DNA of 55,828 nucleotides from Bacteroidales bacterium (lineage in GTDB: Bacteria > Bacteroidota > Bacteroidia > Bacteroidales > F082). Both the position numbers and the translations under genes were made by a program. The stretch is from contig JAFYIE010000117.1 in the NCBI GenBank assembly GCA_017538795.1, positions 1-55,828 on the forward strand, in the 5' to 3' direction. The notes beneath the pieces were generated by a model. It was not told where the DNA came from, searched no databases, and saw only the letters and a program-made list of their open reading frames with translations. Below are positions 7,556 through 22,660 of the stretch, one piece after another (positions within the stretch are counted from its first letter, which is position 1; the number at the start of each line of letters is the position of its first letter).

Positions 7556-8872
7556 CACATTTTCGTTTTTCAGACGCACCTTAAGCCAGCGCTCGATCTG
7601 GTCGTGAAGAGTCTTGTCTAAATGCTCTTTACATGAGATGAACGCTATCACCTGCTCCGACTCGGTGAATGTATCGATGTCGACGACAGAGCCGCAAGTG
7701 ACGCTGATACTGGTAATTGAAGGGTGCACCGCAAACAGCTCCTGCGCTATCGCCTGCACCGAGATCTCTTTGTCTTTATAAGCCTCGAGACGCGCGTTCA
7801 GCTTAACGATACTGTCGTTCAGCACCTTTATCTGACGGTCGGTGTGCTCATAAATCTCTTTCAAAATCTCAGCCTCCGAAAGGTCTTCACGGACATATGT
7901 CGCGTCTTCATGGAACAAAATCTGACTGCGCATGATGCCATATTTCTCGGCGCTCATATAAAGCTTCTCTTTCGCCTCATCCGACAAGACGTCGCCTGCC
8001 ACAAAAATCTCCAATTTGGCCGATTTGCGGGAATAAATCGTCTTGTGGTCGTAGACGAAACTCTTGCCCATGTTCTTATTTTCCTGGACAAATTTAGCCG
8101 ATTTGATCTTGAAATCGTTTTCCTTCACCACGTTAAAAGCCGTCCAGATACTCGGGGCGATGATGACCGTGAGGATGATTGCATACCAGGCTTTCGACAT
8201 GCGTTTATGTTTTCCGTCGGCTGTCTCAACTGCAGGGAATTTAAAGAATTTCACCGCGAGGAAAGTCGCCAATGCGATGAAGATACTGTTTATCAGGAAC
8301 AGATAGAGGGCGCCGCCGATAAACGTAATGTTCAGTCTCGAGATGCCGTATCCAATGGTGCAGAGTGGTGGCATGAGGGCTGTGGCGATGGCCACACCGG
8401 AAATCACAGTGCCTTTCTCCTTGCGGGATGTCTCCAAGATACCGGCAAAGCCGCCGAACAAAGCGATGAGCACGTCATAGATGGTAGGATTGGTACGCGC
8501 CAACAGCTCCGACGGATTTTCCAAGGTGAGAGGACTCAAAAGGAAGTAAAAAAACGACGCGAAGATGCTGATAAGCACCATTATCGCGAAGTTTTTCAGC
8601 GAGTCTTTCATGAGGCTATTGTCTTCGGTGCCGAGACCGAGGCCGAAGCCTAAAATCGGGCCCATGACAGGTGAAATCAACATGGCGCCGATGATGACCG
8701 GGATTGAGTTGACGTTCAAACCCACAGACGCAATGATGATGGCGCATGCCAAAATGATGACGTTCGGGCCTTTAAACGCGATGTTTTTACGTATTGAGCT
8801 GTCGGCTGTCTGATAATCAACGTTTTCTCTGACATTGATTAAATCAGCTAATTTTTCGGAGTATTTATTCAT
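7535..8872 (-). CDS. DUF389 family membrane protein
   Basis: 445 residues. The N-terminal half has the DUF389 membrane core: 'NVIILACAIIIASVGLNVNSIPVIIGAMLISPVMGPILGFG' motifs around 37-78 and 'GVAIATALMPPLCTIGYGI' near 160-178, with about six or seven membrane segments. The C-terminal half (about 255-445) is soluble and contains an amphipathic stretch that could form a coiled coil. The molecular role of DUF389 is not established. It is the last gene of the long minus-strand operon, 12 bp after the DUF2147 gene, and runs tail to tail into the antiporter gene. Confidence 0.85.
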   Translation of the reverse strand: MNKYSEKLADLINVRENVDYQTADSSIRKNIAFKGPNVIILACAIIIASVGLNVNSIPVIIGAMLISPVMGPILGFGLGLGTEDNSLMKDSLKNFAIMVLISIFASFFYFLLSPLTLENPSELLARTNPTIYDVLIALFGGFAGILETSRKEKGTVISGVAIATALMPPLCTIGYGISRLNITFIGGALYLFLINSIFIALATFLAVKFFKFPAVETADGKHKRMSKAWYAIILTVIIAPSIWTAFNVVKENDFKIKSAKFVQENKNMGKSFVYDHKTIYSRKSAKLEIFVAGDVLSDEAKEKLYMSAEKYGIMRSQILFHEDATYVREDLSEAEILKEIYEHTDRQIKVLNDSIVKLNARLEAYKDKEISVQAIAQELFAVHPSITSISVTCGSVVDIDTFTESEQVIAFISCKEHLDKTLHDQIERWLKVRLKNENVLVVEAK

Positions 8873-12944: not shown

Positions 12945-13681
12945 TATTTTTTGTTTTTATTTCTCGTACAAACAACTTGATTTTCAAAATTAAAATTTAT
13001 CTTGCAATAGTTCTTCAGCTCCGGCGAACCTTGCATCTGCTCAAGGAAATACTTCATATTCATCAGCTTCTCGTCAACATCCTGATCGTCGCCAAGAATA
13101 ACTTTCATGTCGACATTGTTCAACACAAGCTCGTAGTTTTTGCCGTCGAAATAAACTTGCTTCACGCAACAGCTTGAATATAAATTATTTAGAACACTTT
13201 TCATCACTTTAAAAACTTTCGGCAAATCGTCTTTCGTGATATTGCCGCTGCCTATCAGAAAATGCTCCGAATAGCCGCTTTTTGTCGGATAAACGTTGCC
13301 GTCAGCGTCGAGATAAACCGAGCGGCCGTTTTTGTCGTAGATTCGCATAATAGGCTGACATTCAACGATATTCACCTCCAAAACCTCATCAAAAGTAATG
13401 TTCGCCTCGGTGTAAACGGCCCACGGAATCGATTTTATGTAATTTCTAACGCTATCGAGAGGAATTTTCGTGATATCATTATTTTTTGCCGTATCACAGA
13501 TCCTCATAATCTTCTGATATTCAACATCTTTATCGATAAAACCATTCTCTTTTTGACGATGGATGGTGAGCTCGACGCCCTTCAAAGGATGCTCGATATG
13601 TTCCTTATGGGTAAAGAACCACAGGCAGCCAATCGCGGCGATTGTCAGCACCCAGACCAATATTTTAAGGAACTTTTTCAT
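12944..13681 (-). CDS. ftsQ: Cell division protein FtsQ
   Basis: 245 residues with an N-terminal membrane anchor (about 5-24) and a periplasmic part with the POTRA-like and beta domains of FtsQ/DivIB ('IPWAVYTEANITFDEVLEVNIVECQPIMRI' region near 88-117). Sequence conservation is low, as usual for the family, so the call leans on position between murC and ftsA and on length. It overlaps murC by ATGA. Confidence 0.88.
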   Translation of the reverse strand: MKKFLKILVWVLTIAAIGCLWFFTHKEHIEHPLKGVELTIHRQKENGFIDKDVEYQKIMRICDTAKNNDITKIPLDSVRNYIKSIPWAVYTEANITFDEVLEVNIVECQPIMRIYDKNGRSVYLDADGNVYPTKSGYSEHFLIGSGNITKDDLPKVFKVMKSVLNNLYSSCCVKQVYFDGKNYELVLNNVDMKVILGDDQDVDEKLMNMKYFLEQMQGSPELKNYCKINFNFENQVVCTRNKNKK

Positions 13682-15003
13682 TTCTTGAACATCTCTTCAA
13701 TTTGCGGCACGAAGCGGTCGATATCGCCTGCGCCTACAGTCATAACTAATTCAGGGTCAATATATTGTATCTTTTTCAGCAATTCATCTTTACTGCAAAG
13801 CATTTTTTCTTTCGCAGTGATTTTTTCGAGAAGCGCCGCTGATGTGACGCCTTCTATCGGGAGCTCGCGTGCCGGATAAATGTCGAGCAGAATGACTCTG
13901 TCGGCAAGCGACAGGCTCTCGGCGAAGCCATCCATGAAGTCGCGGGTTCTTGTGAACAGATGCGGTTGAAACACCACCGTCAGCTCCTTGTCGCGGAACA
14001 CTTTACGAGCAGCCAGCAATGCCGCTTTTATCTCCTCCGGATGATGTGCGTAATCGTCGATGTAAACATGTTTTTCGTCTCTAACACGAATGTCGAAACG
14101 ACGCTGAACGCCTTTGAAGGTTTCCAAGCCTTCGCGGATATCCTCTTGAGAAATACCAAGATACGAACAAACGACGATAGCGGCGAGGGCGTTCTGAACG
14201 TTGTGGTTGCCGTAGAGCTGCATTTTGAAAGAACTCGGAACGTTACCAGCAACCACAACGTCAAATTGCGTTTTTCCATCAACGATTTCTATATTTTTCG
14301 CAATCACATCGGCGTTTTCGAGGCCGTAGGTGATATGTTTCTTATCAGTTTTTATCGGCAGATTCTCGTGATAAACCACCAAGCCGTCGCTGGAGGTCTT
14401 GTTCACGAACTCGTTGAAACTGTCAACGAGATGCTGATAATCGCCGTAGATATCGAGGTGGTCGGCATCGATTGAGGTCACGACGCTCACGAATGGCGAC
14501 AGTTTCAGGAACGAGTGGTCGAACTCGTCGGCTTCCATCACTATCAGGTCGTCTTTTTCCTCGCCTATCACCACGTTGCTGTCGATGTTGCGTGCAATGC
14601 CTCCGATAAAGGCCGACAGTTTCTTGCTAGCGGTCATCAGGATATGCGTCACGAGAGCTGTTGTCGTGGTCTTGCCGTGCGTTCCGGCTATCGCGATGGC
14701 TTCGTGCTGGCGCGACAGCATGCCAAGCACTTCGGCGCGTTTTATAATCTCAACGTTTTTCTCTTTCAGATAGTTCAGTTCGCGCGAGTCGGCAGGTATA
14801 GCCGGTGTCAGCACAACGAACTCGATGTCTTCAGGAATCAAAGCAGGGTCGTCGGTATAGTGCACAGCGATTCCTTCGCCCTCCAGACGTTTTGTCAGAG
14901 GCGATGGGGTACGGTCGTATCCCGCCACTTTATAGCCTTTGGCTTTGAAATATCTTGCCAATGCACTCATACCGATTCCGCCGATTCCTAAGAAATATAT
15001 CAT
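13678..15003 (-). CDS. murC: UDP-N-acetylmuramate-L-alanine ligase
   Basis: 441 residues. Adds L-Ala to UDP-MurNAc. The N-terminal Rossmann motif GIGGIGMSALA lies at 6-16, the ATP loop 'AGTHGKTTTTALV' near 108-120, 'DADHLDIYGDY' in the middle domain near 185, and 'YAHHPEEIKAAL' in the C-terminal ligase domain near 318. All three Mur-ligase domains are present, unlike the MurD remnant in the same operon. It overlaps murG and ftsQ by 4-base ATGA junctions. Confidence 0.97.
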   Translation of the reverse strand: MIYFLGIGGIGMSALARYFKAKGYKVAGYDRTPSPLTKRLEGEGIAVHYTDDPALIPEDIEFVVLTPAIPADSRELNYLKEKNVEIIKRAEVLGMLSRQHEAIAIAGTHGKTTTTALVTHILMTASKKLSAFIGGIARNIDSNVVIGEEKDDLIVMEADEFDHSFLKLSPFVSVVTSIDADHLDIYGDYQHLVDSFNEFVNKTSSDGLVVYHENLPIKTDKKHITYGLENADVIAKNIEIVDGKTQFDVVVAGNVPSSFKMQLYGNHNVQNALAAIVVCSYLGISQEDIREGLETFKGVQRRFDIRVRDEKHVYIDDYAHHPEEIKAALLAARKVFRDKELTVVFQPHLFTRTRDFMDGFAESLSLADRVILLDIYPARELPIEGVTSAALLEKITAKEKMLCSKDELLKKIQYIDPELVMTVGAGDIDRFVPQIEEMFKK

Positions 15004-16127
15004 CCTAAAACCTTATCTATTTCGTTTACAATATCTTCCGCCGCGTTTGGTCTTGCAAATTTAGCAATATTTTCTTGCATTTTGCAAATTTTTTCTTCAT
15101 CTTTTATCAATTCGAAGACTGTGGGGATAAGTTTCTCCGGAGTCTCGTTGTTTTTCACGATAATAGCGGCGTCTTTGTCGACCAAACTCTGGGCGTTTTT
15201 GGTCTGATGATCCTCGGCAGCTGTCGGAAGCGGGACGAAAACCACAGCCTTTTTCACCAACGAAAGCTCCGAAATCGACATCGCGCCGGCGCGTGAGATC
15301 ACCACGTTGGCACAAGCGTAGGCCAAATCCATCCTGTCGATGAAAACCGTAGGCTTGACCTTGTCTTCAAGTCCGAGCTCCCTGATTTCTCTCTCCGCCT
15401 GCTCGATATAAAGTTTTCCTGTCTGCCAAATCAACTGATAATCGACGTCTTTAAACATCGCAAGTTTCGCCGAGATACCTTTGTTGATTCCGAGGGCGCC
15501 TTGGCTTCCGCCTACGAGCAAAATTATCGACTTTTGAGGGTCGAGACCGAAGAACTTCGCTCCTTCCTCACGTTTTCCTTCTATTGAAACGACGTTGTTT
15601 CTCAACGGGTTACCTGTCAGAACTATTTTATCTTTCGGGAACCAGCGTTCCATGTTTTCATAAGCCACGCATATCTTCGCCGCCTTAGGAGCCACAATCT
15701 TATTCGTCACGCCTGGAAACGAGTTCTGTTCCTGTATCACGACAGGTATACCAAGCGACGTAGCCTTGCGCATGGTCGGGCCGCTCGCGAAGCCGCCGAC
15801 GCCGACGACAGCGTCAGGTTTGAAATTCTTCAAGATACGTTTCGCCTTCCAGAGACTGCTTATCAGCTTGAACGGGAAGCTCAGATTGTCGAGAGAGAGC
15901 TCTCGTTTGAAACCGCTAATCCACAGTCCTTCAATAGGATAGCCTGCCTTAGGCACGCGTTCCATCTCCATTCTGCCCTTTGCCCCGACAAACAATATCT
16001 CCGCGTCGGGATGACGGCGTTTGAAAGCGTCGGCGATGGCTATAGCAGGAAAAATATGGCCTCCCGTTCCGCCTCCGCTAACTATCAGCCTCGGGCTCTT
16101 CTTCTGTATCTGGCTCTCTGTCTTCAT
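15000..16127 (-). CDS. murG: UDP-GlcNAc:undecaprenyl-PP-MurNAc-pentapeptide GlcNAc transferase
   Basis: 375-residue GT28 enzyme that makes lipid II on the inner face of the membrane. The glycine loop GGGTGGH lies at 18-24, the second loop 'VGVGGFASGP' near 100 and 'ISRAGAMSISEL' in the C-terminal UDP-GlcNAc site near 270. The ATG at 16127 lies 50 bp inside ftsW; I see no later ATG before the glycine loop, so this overlap is probably real. ATGA overlap with murC downstream. Confidence 0.96.
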   Translation of the reverse strand: MKTESQIQKKSPRLIVSGGGTGGHIFPAIAIADAFKRRHPDAEILFVGAKGRMEMERVPKAGYPIEGLWISGFKRELSLDNLSFPFKLISSLWKAKRILKNFKPDAVVGVGGFASGPTMRKATSLGIPVVIQEQNSFPGVTNKIVAPKAAKICVAYENMERWFPKDKIVLTGNPLRNNVVSIEGKREEGAKFFGLDPQKSIILLVGGSQGALGINKGISAKLAMFKDVDYQLIWQTGKLYIEQAEREIRELGLEDKVKPTVFIDRMDLAYACANVVISRAGAMSISELSLVKKAVVFVPLPTAAEDHQTKNAQSLVDKDAAIIVKNNETPEKLIPTVFELIKDEEKICKMQENIAKFARPNAAEDIVNEIDKVLG

Positions 16128-17286
16128 TATTTTTAACTTTTTCTACTTCTTTTGTCACACTGATAAGTATTCCTATCGAAAGTCCTGTAAACAACAGCGA
16201 CGTTCCTCCCATGCTGATGAACGGCAGCGGCTGTCCCGTCACCGGAAACAGTCCCACGGCGACGCCCATGTTCACCATCGCCTGCATCACGAGGCTGAAG
16301 GCGAGACCCATGGCAAGCAAGGCCGCGAACGACTGCGGCGCCGTCAGCATGATACGCGTCGCTCGGTACAGCAGGATAAGGTACAACGCCAACACGAAAA
16401 TGCCGCCCAAGAGTCCGTACTCCTCCAAGATGATGGCGTAGATGAAATCTGAGTAAGGATGCGGCAACACGTTACGCTGCGTGCTCTTTCCAGGCGACTT
16501 TCCAACGATTCCGCCTCCAGCGATGGCTATCTTCGACTGCATCACCTGGAAATTGGCGGTGTCGTCGGCTTCTTCCTCCTCGCTGCTGAAAAATCGTTCG
16601 ATACGGTTGACCCAAGTGGCACTGCGGTTGTCTTTTGAGAAGGCGAACGAGATAAGCATGAAAAACGCTCCCGCCACCATGATGATTCCGATAAATCCGA
16701 AGATAAACTTCAGCTTGACCTTGCTTAAAAACATCATCACAATACAGGTCGCGAAAAGCATAGCCGCCGTCGAGAAGTTCTCAGGGAAGATAAGACCCAC
16801 GATCACCAAAATCGGCAGCATCACCCTGATGCCAATCTCTTTATAGTTATTGAGTTCGTCACGACGAAGCGTCAGAACCCTTGCCAGGAATCCGATGAGT
16901 GCTATCTTCGCCAGGTCGCTGGTCTGGAACGTCACTCCCGCGATGCCGATGACACGCTGCGCATGGTTGAGGTTCTTACCGAAGAACAGGGTGTAGATCA
17001 GCAACGGGATGGCAATCCAGAAAAGCAGGAGCAGCAGCTTCGAGTAGCGTTTGTAGTTGAGGCGCGAAGCACCGAACATACACACCAAGCCAAGCAGCAG
17101 CATCATGGCATGACGCAGCAGCACAAAGGCATTGTTGCCGTTGTAGCTTCTGTTTGCCACCGACTCCGAGGCGCTGTACACAGCGAGCAACGATATCAAG
17201 GTGAGGAACGCAACCACCACCCAGATGACTTTGTCGCCTTGAAACAGGTTCTTAGTTTTCTCTATGACCGTCTCTCTGTCTATCAT
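16078..17286 (-). CDS. ftsW: Lipid II polymerase FtsW (SEDS family)
   Basis: 402-residue polytopic membrane protein with about ten segments. SEDS motifs: 'GKSPGKSTQRNVLPHPYSD' in the long periplasmic loop near 265, 'YSDFIYAIILEEYGL', and 'VTGQPLPFISMGGTSLL' near 345. It is the septal peptidoglycan polymerase that partners FtsI. The C-terminal acidic tail (about 385-402) is encoded in the 50 bp shared with murG. It follows the MurD stub with an ATGA overlap. Confidence 0.96.
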   Translation of the reverse strand: MIDRETVIEKTKNLFQGDKVIWVVVAFLTLISLLAVYSASESVANRSYNGNNAFVLLRHAMMLLLGLVCMFGASRLNYKRYSKLLLLLFWIAIPLLIYTLFFGKNLNHAQRVIGIAGVTFQTSDLAKIALIGFLARVLTLRRDELNNYKEIGIRVMLPILVIVGLIFPENFSTAAMLFATCIVMMFLSKVKLKFIFGFIGIIMVAGAFFMLISFAFSKDNRSATWVNRIERFFSSEEEEADDTANFQVMQSKIAIAGGGIVGKSPGKSTQRNVLPHPYSDFIYAIILEEYGLLGGIFVLALYLILLYRATRIMLTAPQSFAALLAMGLAFSLVMQAMVNMGVAVGLFPVTGQPLPFISMGGTSLLFTGLSIGILISVTKEVEKVKNNEDREPDTEEEPEADS

Positions 17287-17825
17287 GATAACTCTTTTGC
17301 CATTTTGACAAAAACTTTCTCCATTTTCCTAACGTCAACTCCTTGAATCTCGCAGCCTGGCGAGAAAAGGATGCTGTATCCGGAGACAGCCTTACACTCG
17401 GCTATCTTCATAGCTTCCTCGATAGTTTCAGCTTCTATCACACGGTTACGGACGAGGCAGCCCAAAGCCGAATGCATAGGCTGGACGTTGTCACCAACGC
17501 AGATTATCGTTCTAACATGTTGACGCACAACAGGAATCATCTCTTCATAATCCTCATTTCCTGCCAAAGCGATCCAAATGGTAGGCTCGTTGATACTCTC
17601 TATCGAGAACCATGTCGCCGAGAGGCTTTTCGCCGCGCTGTCGTTGATGTATTTCACGCCGTTGCGCACCGCCACGAGCTCGTTCCTGTGTTTGATGTGC
17701 TCACAATCAACGAAACTGTTCTTCAGATTTGTGTTTCGAGCATGACTGATGCTCTGGTTGATGGTGAACGCCGTCGTGAAAATCTCTTTTCTTCTACCTT
17801 GTTTTGCCAACTGTTCTAATGTCAT
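17283..17825 (-). CDS. MurD remnant: diverged C-terminal Mur-ligase domain only
   Basis: 180 residues at the position where Bacteroidota dcw clusters carry murD (~445 residues). It begins near the end of the central domain and covers the C-terminal domain: 'HIKHRNELVAVRNGVKYINDSAAKSLSATW' corresponds to the MurD 'H-R-E...Y-I-NDSKATN...STW' region. Only 12 bp separate it from mraY, so the N-terminal UMAG-binding and central ATPase domains are absent, not frameshifted. Key residues have changed: the DSKAT lysine and threonine are replaced (DSAAK, 62-66), DKG is GNE (89-91) and SPxCASF is SPGCE (155-159). The frame is intact and joins ftsW by ATGA, so the gene is maintained. It is probably not a ligase. 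Either a full murD lies elsewhere or this domain has another role. Confidence 0.85.
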   Translation of the reverse strand: MTLEQLAKQGRRKEIFTTAFTINQSISHARNTNLKNSFVDCEHIKHRNELVAVRNGVKYINDSAAKSLSATWFSIESINEPTIWIALAGNEDYEEMIPVVRQHVRTIICVGDNVQPMHSALGCLVRNRVIEAETIEEAMKIAECKAVSGYSILFSPGCEIQGVDVRKMEKVFVKMAKELS

Positions 17826-17837
17826 AATATCTATTTT

Positions 17838-19118
17838 TTATCTTATCTTCAATGTTAAAATCGCGAAAGCCACTAAAATGATTGTCACGATCCAGAATCT
17901 GAGTGTGATTTTCACCTCATGATAGAGGTTTTTAGGGCCTTTGTAAATCACCGTCGAGGTCGGGTCGCCGCTCAGCACCTGCTCCATCGATGTCCTGAAA
18001 TGGTCGTGGATAGGTGTGCGTTTCCACACTCTCTGATGCACTCCTTTTTTCTTTCCAGCTCTGAAATAAGCCTTTTGCACGATGACGGAAATGCTTTCCA
18101 ACAGGAATATTCCGCACATTATCGGCAGCAGCAGCTCTTTGTGGATTATCACAGCCGACACCGCGATGATGCCGCCTATCGTCAGGCTGCCAGTGTCGCC
18201 CATGAACACCTGTGCCGGGAAGGAGTTGAACCACAGGAAGCCTATCAGTGCGCCCACGAAAGAAGCCAGGAACACAGCCACTTCCTCGCTGCCCGGGATA
18301 TACATGATATCGAGGTATCCCGACAGCACCGCATTACTCGAGAGATACGCCAGAATGCCGATGCCGAATCCTATTATCGCGGAGTTACCCGCCGCCATGC
18401 CGTCCATGCCGTCGTTGAGGTTCGAGCCGTTGCTGACAGCAGCCACCACAAACACCGTCAACATCACGAAGAAGACCCATCCTGCCCAGTATTTGTATGG
18501 CTCGCCCATGAAATTGAAGATGTCGGCATAGTTCAAATTATGATTCTTAAAGAATGGAATGGTGGTTCTCGTCGACTTCACGTCAGGGCTCTTAATCACT
18601 ATTTCCTTGTTATCCTCGATTCTCGTCTCAACAATCTCGTTCATCACGACCTGAGGGCTGAAACGCAGCGTCAGTCCAACTATCAAACCCAACGTCACCT
18701 GACCTAAGATCTTATACCATCCGTTCAAGCCGTCTTTTCTCTTTTTGAAAGTCTTGATATAATCGTCGGCGAAGCCTATCCCGCCGAGGATGAGAGTCGT
18801 CACGAGCATCAGAATCATGTAGATATTCAGCACCTTACCGAAAAGTAGGCAAGGCACGAGAATTGATGAGATGATGATGATGCCGCCCATCGTCGGGACG
18901 CCTTTCTTGTTCACGTTGAACGGGTCAATCTTAGCGTCGCGCTGCACCTCCGAGATGTGACGTTTCTTCATGAAATCGATGAAGAAATTGCCGAACCACA
19001 CAGATATCACCAGCGAGAATATTATCGCGATGATGGCGCGCACAGTGACGTAGTCGAGCACGCCGGCGCCCGGCAGACCGAATCTCAAACTAAGATATTT
19101 CCAGAAATAGTATAACAT
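17838..19118 (-). CDS. mraY: Phospho-MurNAc-pentapeptide translocase
   Basis: 426-residue inner-membrane enzyme that attaches phospho-MurNAc-pentapeptide to undecaprenyl phosphate (lipid I). Signatures: 'KKGVPTMGGIIII' near 51, 'FADDYIKTFKKRKDGLNGWYK' near 117 with the DD pair, 'NLNDGMDGMAAG' near 233 and 'FMGDTGSLTIGG' near 307. It has the extra soluble insert (about 165-200) seen in Bacteroidota MraY, and the HxHH-like 'IHDHF' near 372. Confidence 0.97.
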   Translation of the reverse strand: MLYYFWKYLSLRFGLPGAGVLDYVTVRAIIAIIFSLVISVWFGNFFIDFMKKRHISEVQRDAKIDPFNVNKKGVPTMGGIIIISSILVPCLLFGKVLNIYMILMLVTTLILGGIGFADDYIKTFKKRKDGLNGWYKILGQVTLGLIVGLTLRFSPQVVMNEIVETRIEDNKEIVIKSPDVKSTRTTIPFFKNHNLNYADIFNFMGEPYKYWAGWVFFVMLTVFVVAAVSNGSNLNDGMDGMAAGNSAIIGFGIGILAYLSSNAVLSGYLDIMYIPGSEEVAVFLASFVGALIGFLWFNSFPAQVFMGDTGSLTIGGIIAVSAVIIHKELLLPIMCGIFLLESISVIVQKAYFRAGKKKGVHQRVWKRTPIHDHFRTSMEQVLSGDPTSTVIYKGPKNLYHEVKITLRFWIVTIILVAFAILTLKIR

Positions 19119-19127
19119 CTCCGCCTC

Positions 19128-20543
19128 CTATTTTTCGTTAAAAGCATTTTCAAGTTCTTCTCTGTCGTCGAAATGGTGTTTCACGCCCTTCACATCCTGA
19201 TAGTTTTCATGGCCTTTGCCCGCCACGAGGATGATGTCGCCACGCTTTGCCAACGCCACCGCCGTTCTTATCGCCTCACGACGGTCGGTGATGCACAAAA
19301 CCTTGTTGTAACACTCGCCAGGGACGCCGGCTTTCATCTGTCGGATGATCTCTTCCGGCTCCTCGAAACGCGGGTTGTCACTGGTGATGATGAGTCTGTC
19401 TGACAGCTTCACCGCCGCCGCTGCCATCTTCGGACGTTTGTCGGCGTCACGGTTGCCGCCCGCACCTGCCACGGTGATAAGCGTCTCGTTGTGTGTCCTT
19501 ATCTCGTTGATGGTCGAGAGCACATTTTCCAATGCATCAGGCGTATGGGCGTAGTCGACGATGCCCACGATGCTGTCTTTCGAGCTCACCATCTGGAAAC
19601 GTCCCGCCGCGCTGTGCAGCTTGCTGACTTCCTGCAGCACCTCTTCCTCAGGCATGCCAAGCAGAGAAGCAGCGCCGTAGATTGCCAGCAGATTCGAGGC
19701 GTTGAAACGCCCGACGAGATATGTCGAGACAGCTTTGTTGTTTATCTTCAGCTCCATGCCGTCGAAGTAGCTCTCCATCACGAGACCCTTGAAATCGGCG
19801 TCATGTTTGAGCGAATATGTCTTTTTCGTGGCTTTGGTGTTCTGCAGCATCACCATGCCGTTCTTGTCGTCGAGGTTCGTCAACGCGAACGCCGTCGCCG
19901 GCAGGTTGTCGAAGAATTTCTTCTTCGCGTCGCGGTAGTTGGCCAAGGTCTTATGATAATCGAGATGGTCTTGGGTGAGGTTTGTGAAAATGCCGCCTGC
20001 GAAATGCAAGCCCGCTATTCTGTCTTGGTCGATGCTGTGCGAGCTCACCTCCATGAAGGCGTATTCGCAGCCTGCCTCCACCATCTGCGCCAGCAACGAG
20101 TTGAGCTCCAGCTGGTCGCCGGTGGTATGTGTCGAAGGCACCACATTCTTCCCAACGATGTTTTCTATCGTCGAGAGGAGTCCGCACACATAGCCTGCGT
20201 CGGTGAAGAGACGATACAACAAGGTAGCGATGGTGGTCTTGCCGTTCGTTCCCGTCACACCCACAAGATGCAGCTTCTCCGAAGGCCTGCCGTAGTATTC
20301 CGATGCCGCCAGACCCAACGTCTTCGCGCTGTTCTCAACCACGAAATACTCCACGCCGTCGGCCAACGTCTCCGGCATCTTCTCGCACACAATCTTCTTC
20401 GCGCCGTTCTCAATAGCCTTCGCAATGTAATCGTGTCCGTCGACTTGTGTGCCGCGCACCGCGAAGAACACACTGCCATCAGTGCACTTCCTCGAGTCGA
20501 ACTGCAAATCCTTCGCACCTTTTAAATTCTCGTTTATATTCAT
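19128..20543 (-). CDS. murE: UDP-MurNAc-tripeptide synthetase (meso-DAP adding)
   Basis: 471 residues. Adds meso-diaminopimelate to UDP-MurNAc-L-Ala-D-Glu. 'VTGTNGKTTIATLLY' (P-loop) lies near 95, 'VDYAHTPDALENVL' near 340, 'SDNPRFEEP' near 390 holds the DNPR motif for meso-DAP, and 'AGKGHENYQ' near 445. DapD in this window fits the same chemistry. The frame opens 105 bp upstream inside ftsI, but the ATG at 20543 gives the expected N-terminus and lies 2 bp after the ftsI stop. The N-terminus is slightly shorter than in Bacteroides relatives. Confidence 0.95.
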   Translation of the reverse strand: MNINENLKGAKDLQFDSRKCTDGSVFFAVRGTQVDGHDYIAKAIENGAKKIVCEKMPETLADGVEYFVVENSAKTLGLAASEYYGRPSEKLHLVGVTGTNGKTTIATLLYRLFTDAGYVCGLLSTIENIVGKNVVPSTHTTGDQLELNSLLAQMVEAGCEYAFMEVSSHSIDQDRIAGLHFAGGIFTNLTQDHLDYHKTLANYRDAKKKFFDNLPATAFALTNLDDKNGMVMLQNTKATKKTYSLKHDADFKGLVMESYFDGMELKINNKAVSTYLVGRFNASNLLAIYGAASLLGMPEEEVLQEVSKLHSAAGRFQMVSSKDSIVGIVDYAHTPDALENVLSTINEIRTHNETLITVAGAGGNRDADKRPKMAAAAVKLSDRLIITSDNPRFEEPEEIIRQMKAGVPGECYNKVLCITDRREAIRTAVALAKRGDIILVAGKGHENYQDVKGVKHHFDDREELENAFNEK

Positions 20544-20545
20544 TT

Positions 20546-22660
20546 TTATTTCAATTTCAAAACTATGATTCCGCCTTTTTCTAATTTCGTCCCCGCCTTC
20601 ACGCTCTGGCTCTCCACCAAGCCTCTGCCGCTGAATCCCACCTTCCATCCCATCGACTCGAGGAGATACACGGCGTCCATCACGTTCATGCCGGTCATAT
20701 CAGGCACCACCTCGTTGTCAAGGTCGATGCTCTGAATCGTCACGCCGCCGTTCTTCGAAGGGCTCACCTTCACCCACTCCGAGCTCAGATCCGCGTCGAC
20801 CATCCTCACACCCGCCATAGTGCAGTAGTCGTTCACGTCTTCGTAATACGCCATCGTCGCCTTTGTATATTTGTCAGCGTTAGCCGGATAGCTGCTGGTC
20901 TCGTCTTTGATGCCGAGCTCTGTGGCATATACCTTCTCAGCGATCTCCTTGAAGACTGGCGCCGAGACCGAAGCTCCGTAGTATTTTCCGCCCATAGGGT
21001 TGCTGATAACCACGATGCAGGTATATTTCGGGTCGTCGGCCGGGAAATAGCCCACAAATGAAGCGGTGTAGTTCTTCTTGTTATATTTGCCGTTGCTCGC
21101 AATCTGAGCCGTTCCGGTCTTTCCGGCCACCGAGAAAGCGCATTTGCTCAAAAGCTTGGCGGTGCCGTTCTCGACCACGCCTCTCAACAGTCCCTGCAAC
21201 GTCTTGATGGTCCTCGGCGACGCTATCTGCTCGTTTATCACGATGGTGTCGAACCTCCGAACCACCTCGTTGCCACGACGAATCTCTTTCACAAACTGTG
21301 GCTTCACCATCCTGCCGTTGTTGGCGATGGCGTTGTAGTAAGTCAACAGCGTGATCGGCGTCACCGTCTCTTCGTAACCTATCGACATCCATGGCAACGA
21401 CACCTTCGACCACAGCCTGCTCGTGGTGCTCTTGATGTAAGGCTTGCCTTCGCCTTTTATGTCGAGGTTCAGCGGCTCGTTGATTTTTGTCTTGTAAATC
21501 AGGTCGATAAACTTCTGCGGATTATCTTCAAACGCTTCTGTAGTAAGGTATCCGAACGCGATGTTCGACGACTCCCAGAAGCATTGTTTCACCGTCGGGA
21601 CGCCCTCTCCCACCACATGCGAGTCGGTCATGATGCGGTTATGAAACTTCATCTTGCCTGTCTTGCCGAGATTCAGCACGCGGTCGATATTAAAGTTCGG
21701 GTCGTTTTCGAGCAATGCCGTCATGGTGATAGCCTTGAACGTCGAGCCAGGCTCCACATTCTCCGCGATGGCGAAGTTATACGACTCCTCGTATTTTTTC
21801 TTTTTCTCGTTATATTTCAGCGACGCCATCACCTCTATAAATCCCGATTTCACATCCATCATGATGACACAGCCCTGCAACGCCTCGTTCTCAGCGAGAC
21901 AGCGGCGCAGCGCCTCTTCCGCCACGTCCTGAATCTTCGCGTCGATGGAGGTATAGATGTCTTTTCCGTTCCTCGGCGTGATGTTTGTCGACGACGGCAC
22001 ATCGATGAAACGGCCTCCGTTGATACGACGGCGCATCTGCAGACCGTCCTTGCCGCTCAAACAGGTGTCGTAAGCGCCCTCGAGACCAACCATAACCGGT
22101 TTCAGTGTGTCGTTATAGTTGACATAACCTATCACTCGCATCGCGATGTCGCCGTACGGACGCTCTCTCACCAACTGCTTCTCCGAGATGAAACCGTTTC
22201 CAAGTCTCTCCTTAAAAATCGGGAACGTCTTGATTCGCTCGTATTCTTCAATCTTGAGCTTCTTGGCGATTTTCACATAACGCTTGTTGTTGTTTCTCGC
22301 CTTGGAAAACATATTCACATACTGCGACTTAGTGTGCGCCTTCAGCATCTTCGCGAGGCTGTCCGACAGCTTGTCGATATCTTCCTTAAACCTGTCTTCC
22401 GGCACCGCGACGGGGTCGAAATAAACGTCAAAAACCGGAATCGTGGTGGCGAGAAGTGTGCCGTTTTTCGAAAAGATATTGCCTCTCACGGCCGGAACCT
22501 TCACCACTCGGATATCGGCCTTGCGCGCGCTCTCAAGCAACTCTTCTCTGTCAACAGTCTGAATAACAACGACTTTAGCGACAATAGCCACCCCTACTAC
22601 GAGCATCAGCACGTATATCAGCACAACACGCCAAACATCGCTAAAATCCATCTTACTCAT
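20546..22660 (-). CDS. ftsI: Septal peptidoglycan transpeptidase FtsI/PBP3 with PASTA domain
   Basis: 704 residues. One N-terminal membrane anchor (about 11-33), the PBP dimerisation domain starting 'VPAVRGNIFSKNG', then the transpeptidase with SxxK as Ser306-Thr-Phe-Lys309, SSN near 366 and KTGTAQ near 516. A C-terminal PASTA domain ('VPDMTGMNVMDAVYLLESMGWKV') spans about 645-704. It crosslinks septal peptidoglycan made by FtsW. Bacteroidota FtsI proteins commonly carry a PASTA domain. Confidence 0.96.
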   Translation of the reverse strand: MSKMDFSDVWRVVLIYVLMLVVGVAIVAKVVVIQTVDREELLESARKADIRVVKVPAVRGNIFSKNGTLLATTIPVFDVYFDPVAVPEDRFKEDIDKLSDSLAKMLKAHTKSQYVNMFSKARNNNKRYVKIAKKLKIEEYERIKTFPIFKERLGNGFISEKQLVRERPYGDIAMRVIGYVNYNDTLKPVMVGLEGAYDTCLSGKDGLQMRRRINGGRFIDVPSSTNITPRNGKDIYTSIDAKIQDVAEEALRRCLAENEALQGCVIMMDVKSGFIEVMASLKYNEKKKKYEESYNFAIAENVEPGSTFKAITMTALLENDPNFNIDRVLNLGKTGKMKFHNRIMTDSHVVGEGVPTVKQCFWESSNIAFGYLTTEAFEDNPQKFIDLIYKTKINEPLNLDIKGEGKPYIKSTTSRLWSKVSLPWMSIGYEETVTPITLLTYYNAIANNGRMVKPQFVKEIRRGNEVVRRFDTIVINEQIASPRTIKTLQGLLRGVVENGTAKLLSKCAFSVAGKTGTAQIASNGKYNKKNYTASFVGYFPADDPKYTCIVVISNPMGGKYYGASVSAPVFKEIAEKVYATELGIKDETSSYPANADKYTKATMAYYEDVNDYCTMAGVRMVDADLSSEWVKVSPSKNGGVTIQSIDLDNEVVPDMTGMNVMDAVYLLESMGWKVGFSGRGLVESQSVKAGTKLEKGGIIVLKLK

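Follow-up and report, generated by a model that had tools for sequence, protein, structure and literature searches.

A C-terminal domain of MurD occupies the murD slot of the dcw cluster in Bacteroidales genomes that carry MurD2 and MurL homologues

Introduction

MurD, the UDP-N-acetylmuramoyl-L-alanine--D-glutamate ligase (TIGR01087), has three domains. An alternative to it is the MurD2/MurL route of Xanthomonas oryzae, in which Glu197 and Arg358 distinguish MurD2 from MurD, replacing Asp182 and Lys348 of the E. coli enzyme; in E. coli MurD itself, it was the exchange K319T that allowed L-Glu to be accepted (excerpts of PMC8788868). The same excerpts list the route for Gamma- and Alphaproteobacteria and for actinobacteria only. 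Beyond catalysis, MurD and other Mur enzymes have been reported to recognise MreB, MraY and MurG (excerpts of PMC4929429), and the contact of MurD with MigC was placed at residues 53-103 rather than in the C-terminal domain (excerpts of PMC12208494).

Here we describe a gene in the murD slot of a Bacteroidales dcw cluster which, compared with MurD, lacks two of the three domains, the equivalents of Lys319 and Lys348 and the HN motif. GatD/MurT and other non-canonical relatives of the Mur ligases are multi-domain enzymes, whereas this stub is one domain. Its genome also encodes a pair of proteins that resembles MurD2/MurL of X. oryzae, as the excerpts of PMC8788868 describe it, in the adjacency of the genes, in Glu and Arg at the specificity columns and in that no MurI was found; it differs in that MurL of Bacteroidales reaches 260 bits where the cut-off, set for Xanthomonadales, is 700, that some genera have both proteins as one chain, and that a C-terminal remnant of MurD is kept. 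Neither MurL in Bacteroidales nor a MurD reduced to its C-terminal domain turned up in our searches of the open-access literature.

Results

The murD slot holds a C-terminal domain of MurD

In the window (the whole stretch of 55,828 nucleotides that was analysed), the frame between mraY and ftsW starts 12 bp behind the stop codon of mraY and ends in a TGA that overlaps the ftsW ATG (ATGA), with murE, murG and murC at their usual dcw positions around it (Table 1). For ftsW, the best match was TIGR02614, but at a score below the cut-off of that model. TIGR01087 aligned with residues 18-158 of the stub over profile positions 279-419 of 441 only (E 1.9e-18), scoring 66.8 bits where the cut-off is 211.95, so that by score and length the frame does not belong to the MurD ligases. 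Pfam Mur_ligase_C matched it with E 1.5e-5 and 26.3 bits, slightly below the 28.4-bit cut-off, and the AlphaFold2 model (pLDDT 80.8) has the fold of MurD C-terminal domains; by homology and fold the stub is thus a Mur_ligase_C domain. The UDP-binding N-terminal and the ATP-binding central domain are absent. The frame opens at the equivalent of MurD residues 265-273, where its first residue aligns with an internal Met of full-length MurD in related genomes, so that the stub is a MurD cut short at a Met that was already present and diverged since.

In E. coli numbering, the equivalent of Lys319 is Ala, that of Lys348 is a residue other than Lys, and the HN motif is lost; the equivalents of Asp317 and Arg302 are kept. 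Lacking both lysines, the stub cannot act by itself as a MurD ligase. The preliminary description of this locus had reported a 180-residue frame corresponding to the C-terminal part of MurD only, with the junctions given above and a set of changed motifs (DSKAT to DSAAK, DKG to GNE, SPxCASF to SPGCE), and had concluded that the ligase activity is lost; open reading frame and profile analysis agree with the former, and in the alignments the motif changes are real and the loss of Lys319, Lys348 and the HN motif is evident.

Table 1. Features of the dcw cluster around the MurD stub (window coordinates).
Feature	Position	Strand	Remarks
MurD C-domain stub	17283..17825	-	intact 180-aa ORF, ATG start, TGA stop; profile and AlphaFold2 fold match
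Stub start codon ATG	17823..17825	-	column is Met in 63/67 full-length MurDs examined
Stub N-terminal peptide and segment predicted with low confidence	17715..17825	-	
C-terminal domain proper, about residues 41-180	17283..17705	-	
mraY	17838..19118	-	TIGR00445; upstream neighbour of stub
ftsW	16078..17286	-	Pfam FTSW_RODA_SPOVE over cut-off; downstream neighbour of stub
murG	15000..16127	-	TIGR01133
murC	13678..15003	-	TIGR01082
murE	19128..20648	-	NF001126

The stub is conserved within the genus

A matching frame free of inner stops was present in 73 of the 75 genomes of the genus, well beyond what chance would give. Seventy-one of these frames have 179-222 residues, and the other two are longer (343 residues in G134; 420 in G118, where the stub lies behind an unrelated open stretch). 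All 20 loci from named records hold the stub, again free of inner stops, with an ATG start and 176-179 aa. Residues 1-12 (MTLEQLAKQGRR) are invariant in 21/21 stubs of the genus, and synonymous divergence is lowered over the first 14 codons (pS 0.38 vs 0.68-0.70). Of 13 pairs, 12 could be scored, and their dN/dS ratios for the stub lay between 0.018 and 0.171; the stub protein of the genus is under purifying selection. The conservation of the stub in other genomes rules out an assembly deletion or a frameshift. The preliminary view that the frame is not the product of a frameshift was therefore correct, and so, for the genus, was the view that the domain has been kept. At four of the 20 named-record loci (L018, L019, L020 and L024; about 7960-8010), the stub comes directly after murE, and no mraY was found between the two.

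Across the family, the stub model matched 142 of 149 genomes. We opened 16 regions that belong to 15 further genera of the family, and 15 of the regions hold a full-length MurD with intact motifs in the same slot. In the sixteenth, that of G004, a stub of 182 residues starts from the same Met and has nearly intact C-domain motifs, which makes it a transitional form. The preliminary description had named two signs of recent decay, a normal murD at this position in close relatives and stop codons or drift in the stub; the first was found in sister genera, but the second was absent.

The genome encodes MurD2 and MurL homologues and MurI was not found

Besides the stub, the genome contains a single murD match over the cut-off, a gene for 434 aa on contig C65 (321 bits, profile 1-440). 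It adjoins a MurL homologue (NF041275, E 2.1e-77, profile 5-406 of 447), whose 260 bits fall short of the curated cut-off of 700 of this Xanthomonadales equivalog model; the protein is accordingly a distant homologue, whose function is read solely from homology and from gene exclusion. At the columns of Asp182 and Lys348, the C65 enzyme carries Glu and Arg, as does Xanthomonas MurD2 and as do all 18 MurD2 rows aligned, and it has Ile at the column of Lys319; from these signatures the gene looks like MurD2. In a profile search of the genome MurI was not found (best E 0.16), and the best D-amino-acid-transaminase score was 46 bits against a cut-off of 277, in a weak test that 1 of 14 controls and 0 of 12 genomes passed. 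With MurD2-like and MurL genes present and MurI not found, the whole D-Glu step seems to have been replaced. The full-length murD that had been predicted elsewhere in the genome does exist as a MurD-like gene, but a canonical murD is ruled out, given the MurD2 signatures of the C65 gene and the adjoining MurL. Genome contamination was estimated at 6.59%, yet C65 is unlikely to be a contaminant contig, because MurL is found in 71 of the 75 genus genomes and its MurD2 shares 54-60% identity with the MurD2 of five other members.

In two other genera of the family, MurL and MurD2 form one continuous frame with MurL first (880 aa at L095:2074-4716; 929 aa at L098:627-3416), and further genomes have frames matching MurL that are 880-1005 aa long.

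MurL and MurI exclude each other in Bacteroidales

MurL was detected in 141 of the 149 family genomes and MurI over the cut-off in none; weak MurI-like matches below the cut-off occurred in 25, none of them in the genus of the window. Among 197 Bacteroidales genomes, 66 have MurL (about a third). MurI scored over the cut-off in 0/66 genomes with MurL vs 123/131 without it (Fisher 7e-44), with no genome carrying both and 8 carrying neither: in this sample, MurL and MurI exclude each other. G006 has lost MurL, MurD2 and MurI, and its transaminase match reaches 160 bits, below the cut-off. Together with G219 and G313, which likewise have a full-length murD, no MurL, no MurI over the cut-off and transaminase scores within 95-160 bits (against 277), it may perhaps use a third route to D-Glu. 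G099 and G103 have a stub but no match to MurL or to a full-length MurD-family protein, possibly owing to missing contigs.

Truncated murD is associated with MurL

A C-domain-only murD was present in 28 of 61 scorable genomes with MurL vs 1 of 94 without (Fisher 8e-13, relatedness uncorrected). From this comparison, 40 of the 197 genomes were left out (4 with MurL, 36 without) since their rows were unlisted or absent, and 2 genomes were set aside as contig-edge frames, which for G197 is an assumption. The lone stub without MurL is that of G161, in which neither MurL nor MurI was found. The very diverged stub of G161 (L134 / L193) lies between mraY and ftsW.

For trees and residue comparisons we used 99 dcw loci with a gene in the slot, a chosen set made up of all order-level stubs known and selected full-length genes. 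It comprises 32 stubs from 18 families (31 with MurL, 1 without) and 67 full-length genes (47 with MurL, 20 without); MraY and FtsW were both found at 95 of the 99 loci. At L143, L173 and L186, frames of 818-835 aa were assigned to MurC and a separate MurG was missing, and these are apparent MurG-MurC fusions, a type mentioned in excerpts of PMC4929429. An empty murD slot was not found among the loci, which had been picked by match. When four genomes without a slot match were opened, the contigs of G016, G143 and G075 ended before the slot, and that of G145 showed a MurC-like match of 27% but no dcw gene that could be recognised; four further genomes with MurL (G165, G221, G268 and G294) were left out of this check.

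His267, Asp317, Lys319, Lys348 and Ser415 are kept in 67/67 full-length rows, whether or not MurL is present, and no full-length MurD that is catalytically broken at the tested columns was found among them. The 32 stubs kept His267 in 1 case, Asn271 in 7, Lys348 in 8, Lys319 in 20 and Ser415 in 21, and Asp317 and Arg/Lys302 in every case. As the full-length rows are intact and the stubs eroded, truncation came first and catalytic erosion after it. Outside the genus several stubs are very diverged, and the selection figures given above cover the genus only. Full-length murD is kept by 33 of the 61 scorable genomes with MurL; the tested catalytic columns are intact in 47/47 full-length rows with MurL, and MurI was not found in MurL-carrying genomes. 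MurL alone therefore does not make the ligase dispensable.

Twenty-one of the 32 stubs begin exactly at the column that is commonly Met in full-length MurD (Table 1), and the rest begin near it or are too diverged to be placed. The 20 bases before this internal Met are AT-rich in full-length genes (0.75 vs 0.60 with MurL, 0.69 vs 0.57 without). We do not claim a dedicated internal start in full-length murD, as the AT-richness is also seen in genes without MurL and may reflect loop composition.

Truncation occurred repeatedly

In a FastTree tree of MurE, MraY, FtsW, MurG and MurC, the stubs fell into 14 stub-only clades, assuming that a lost N-terminus is never regained. A tree of the C-terminal domain (96 rows, leaving out three cut at contig ends) required at least 9 changes between stub and full-length gene, and placed the stubs of f47 and f70 beside full-length genes of the same family. 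In an IQ-TREE tree of the five flanking genes from 27 rows, the stub and full-length pairs of f70, f32, f47 and f89 were sisters (SH-aLRT 100), and a topology with the ten stubs as one clade was rejected (AU p 0.00015), which for these 27 chosen rows rules out a single ancient truncation or the spread of one stub. Together, these trees indicate that murD has been cut to its C-terminal domain repeatedly in Bacteroidales, almost only in genomes that carry MurL. A second dcw locus of G032 (L083, G032:C39) grouped with families f6 and f46 and is probably a contaminating contig.

Discussion

We propose, with about even confidence, that MurD2/MurL made the ligase part of MurD dispensable and that its C-terminal domain still serves a purpose other than catalysis, possibly that of an adaptor in the lipid II complex of MraY, MurG and FtsW. 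The N-terminal (UDP-MurNAc) and central (ATP) domains have been lost, and the frame beginning at the internal Met encodes the C-terminal domain that is left. In the genus this domain would have been retained for a task without catalysis, the likeliest being to bind within the complex by which UDP-MurNAc-pentapeptide is passed to MraY, MurG and FtsW. The adaptor role is a guess, prompted by coupled operon expression, by a conserved N-terminal peptide whose fold is predicted with low confidence, and by the reports that Mur enzymes recognise MreB, MraY and MurG; the preliminary description, too, had suggested a structural or regulatory part in lipid II assembly. Less easily fitted in are the 33 of 61 genomes with MurL that keep a full-length murD, the stub of G161, the stubs of G099 and G103 and the 25 weak MurI-like matches in the family. 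A more general reading, to which we give slightly less than even weight, is that in Bacteroidales the C-terminal domain of MurD also serves lipid II assembly, in a second, non-catalytic way that can be parted from ligation. Each time MurD2/MurL relieved the ligase, the protein would have been cut down to this domain, and the series of natural truncations would expose a moonlighting activity hidden in ordinary MurD.

The main rival is a nucleotide sensor, because the residues kept in the stubs sit on the hinge and the nucleotide side. The stub would bind a nucleotide or muropeptide by means of the hinge and ribose-side residues that persist, and would modulate MraY, MurG or FtsW. Asp317, which has a role at the ribose, and Arg/Lys302 are preserved throughout the 32 stubs, whereas Lys348 is preserved in only 8. 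In the closed form of MurD, Arg302 is in contact with the ADP alpha-phosphate (excerpts of PMC4816537). However, the stub has no P-loop domain, the role of Asp317 may be structural, and Lys319 and Lys348 are lost in the protein of the window, so that we consider a sensor unlikely.

Quite improbable is that the frame is kept for operon reasons only, as a spacer with translation coupled to ftsW. Such a spacer would account for the ATGA overlap and for the lowered synonymous divergence of the first 14 codons, but it would not need 180 conserved residues; amino-acid selection in the genus acts along the whole frame, the fold is kept, and the gap to mraY varies from 0 to 274 bp, with one apparent overlap of 58 bp. 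We give a similarly small chance to a split or swapped enzyme, in which the stub would act in trans, paired with domains one and two of MurD2 or of another Mur ligase. MurD2 and the stub are co-inherited in the genus and hinge residues are kept in the stubs, but the MurD2 of this genome is complete with its own C-terminal domain, the stub has lost its glutamate-binding residues, and in the same genome no separate N-terminal piece of MurD was found at E <= 1, apart from one match over 58 positions (E 0.109). Lastly, a dying gene or an assembly deletion, which would explain the erosion of catalytic motifs in stubs and the full gene in relatives, is highly improbable overall and is refuted for the genus by its conserved frames and dN/dS values, stubs moreover occurring in 18 families.

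Returning to a kept, non-catalytic domain as the preferred reading, what is new is that many uncultured Bacteroidales carry the remnant domain of an enzyme already known, linked with an alternative pathway that is itself known but new to this group, and the surprise lies in the repeated truncation. The conservation of the stub hints at a second job for the last third of MurD, as a non-enzymatic piece. If the proposal is right, the MurD2/MurL route would extend to about a third of the sampled Bacteroidales (66/197), genomes from the ruminant and horse gut included. Whether Mur ligases have a structural role in the lipid II complex is difficult to ask of an essential enzyme; the question would become testable with a domain that stands free of catalysis.
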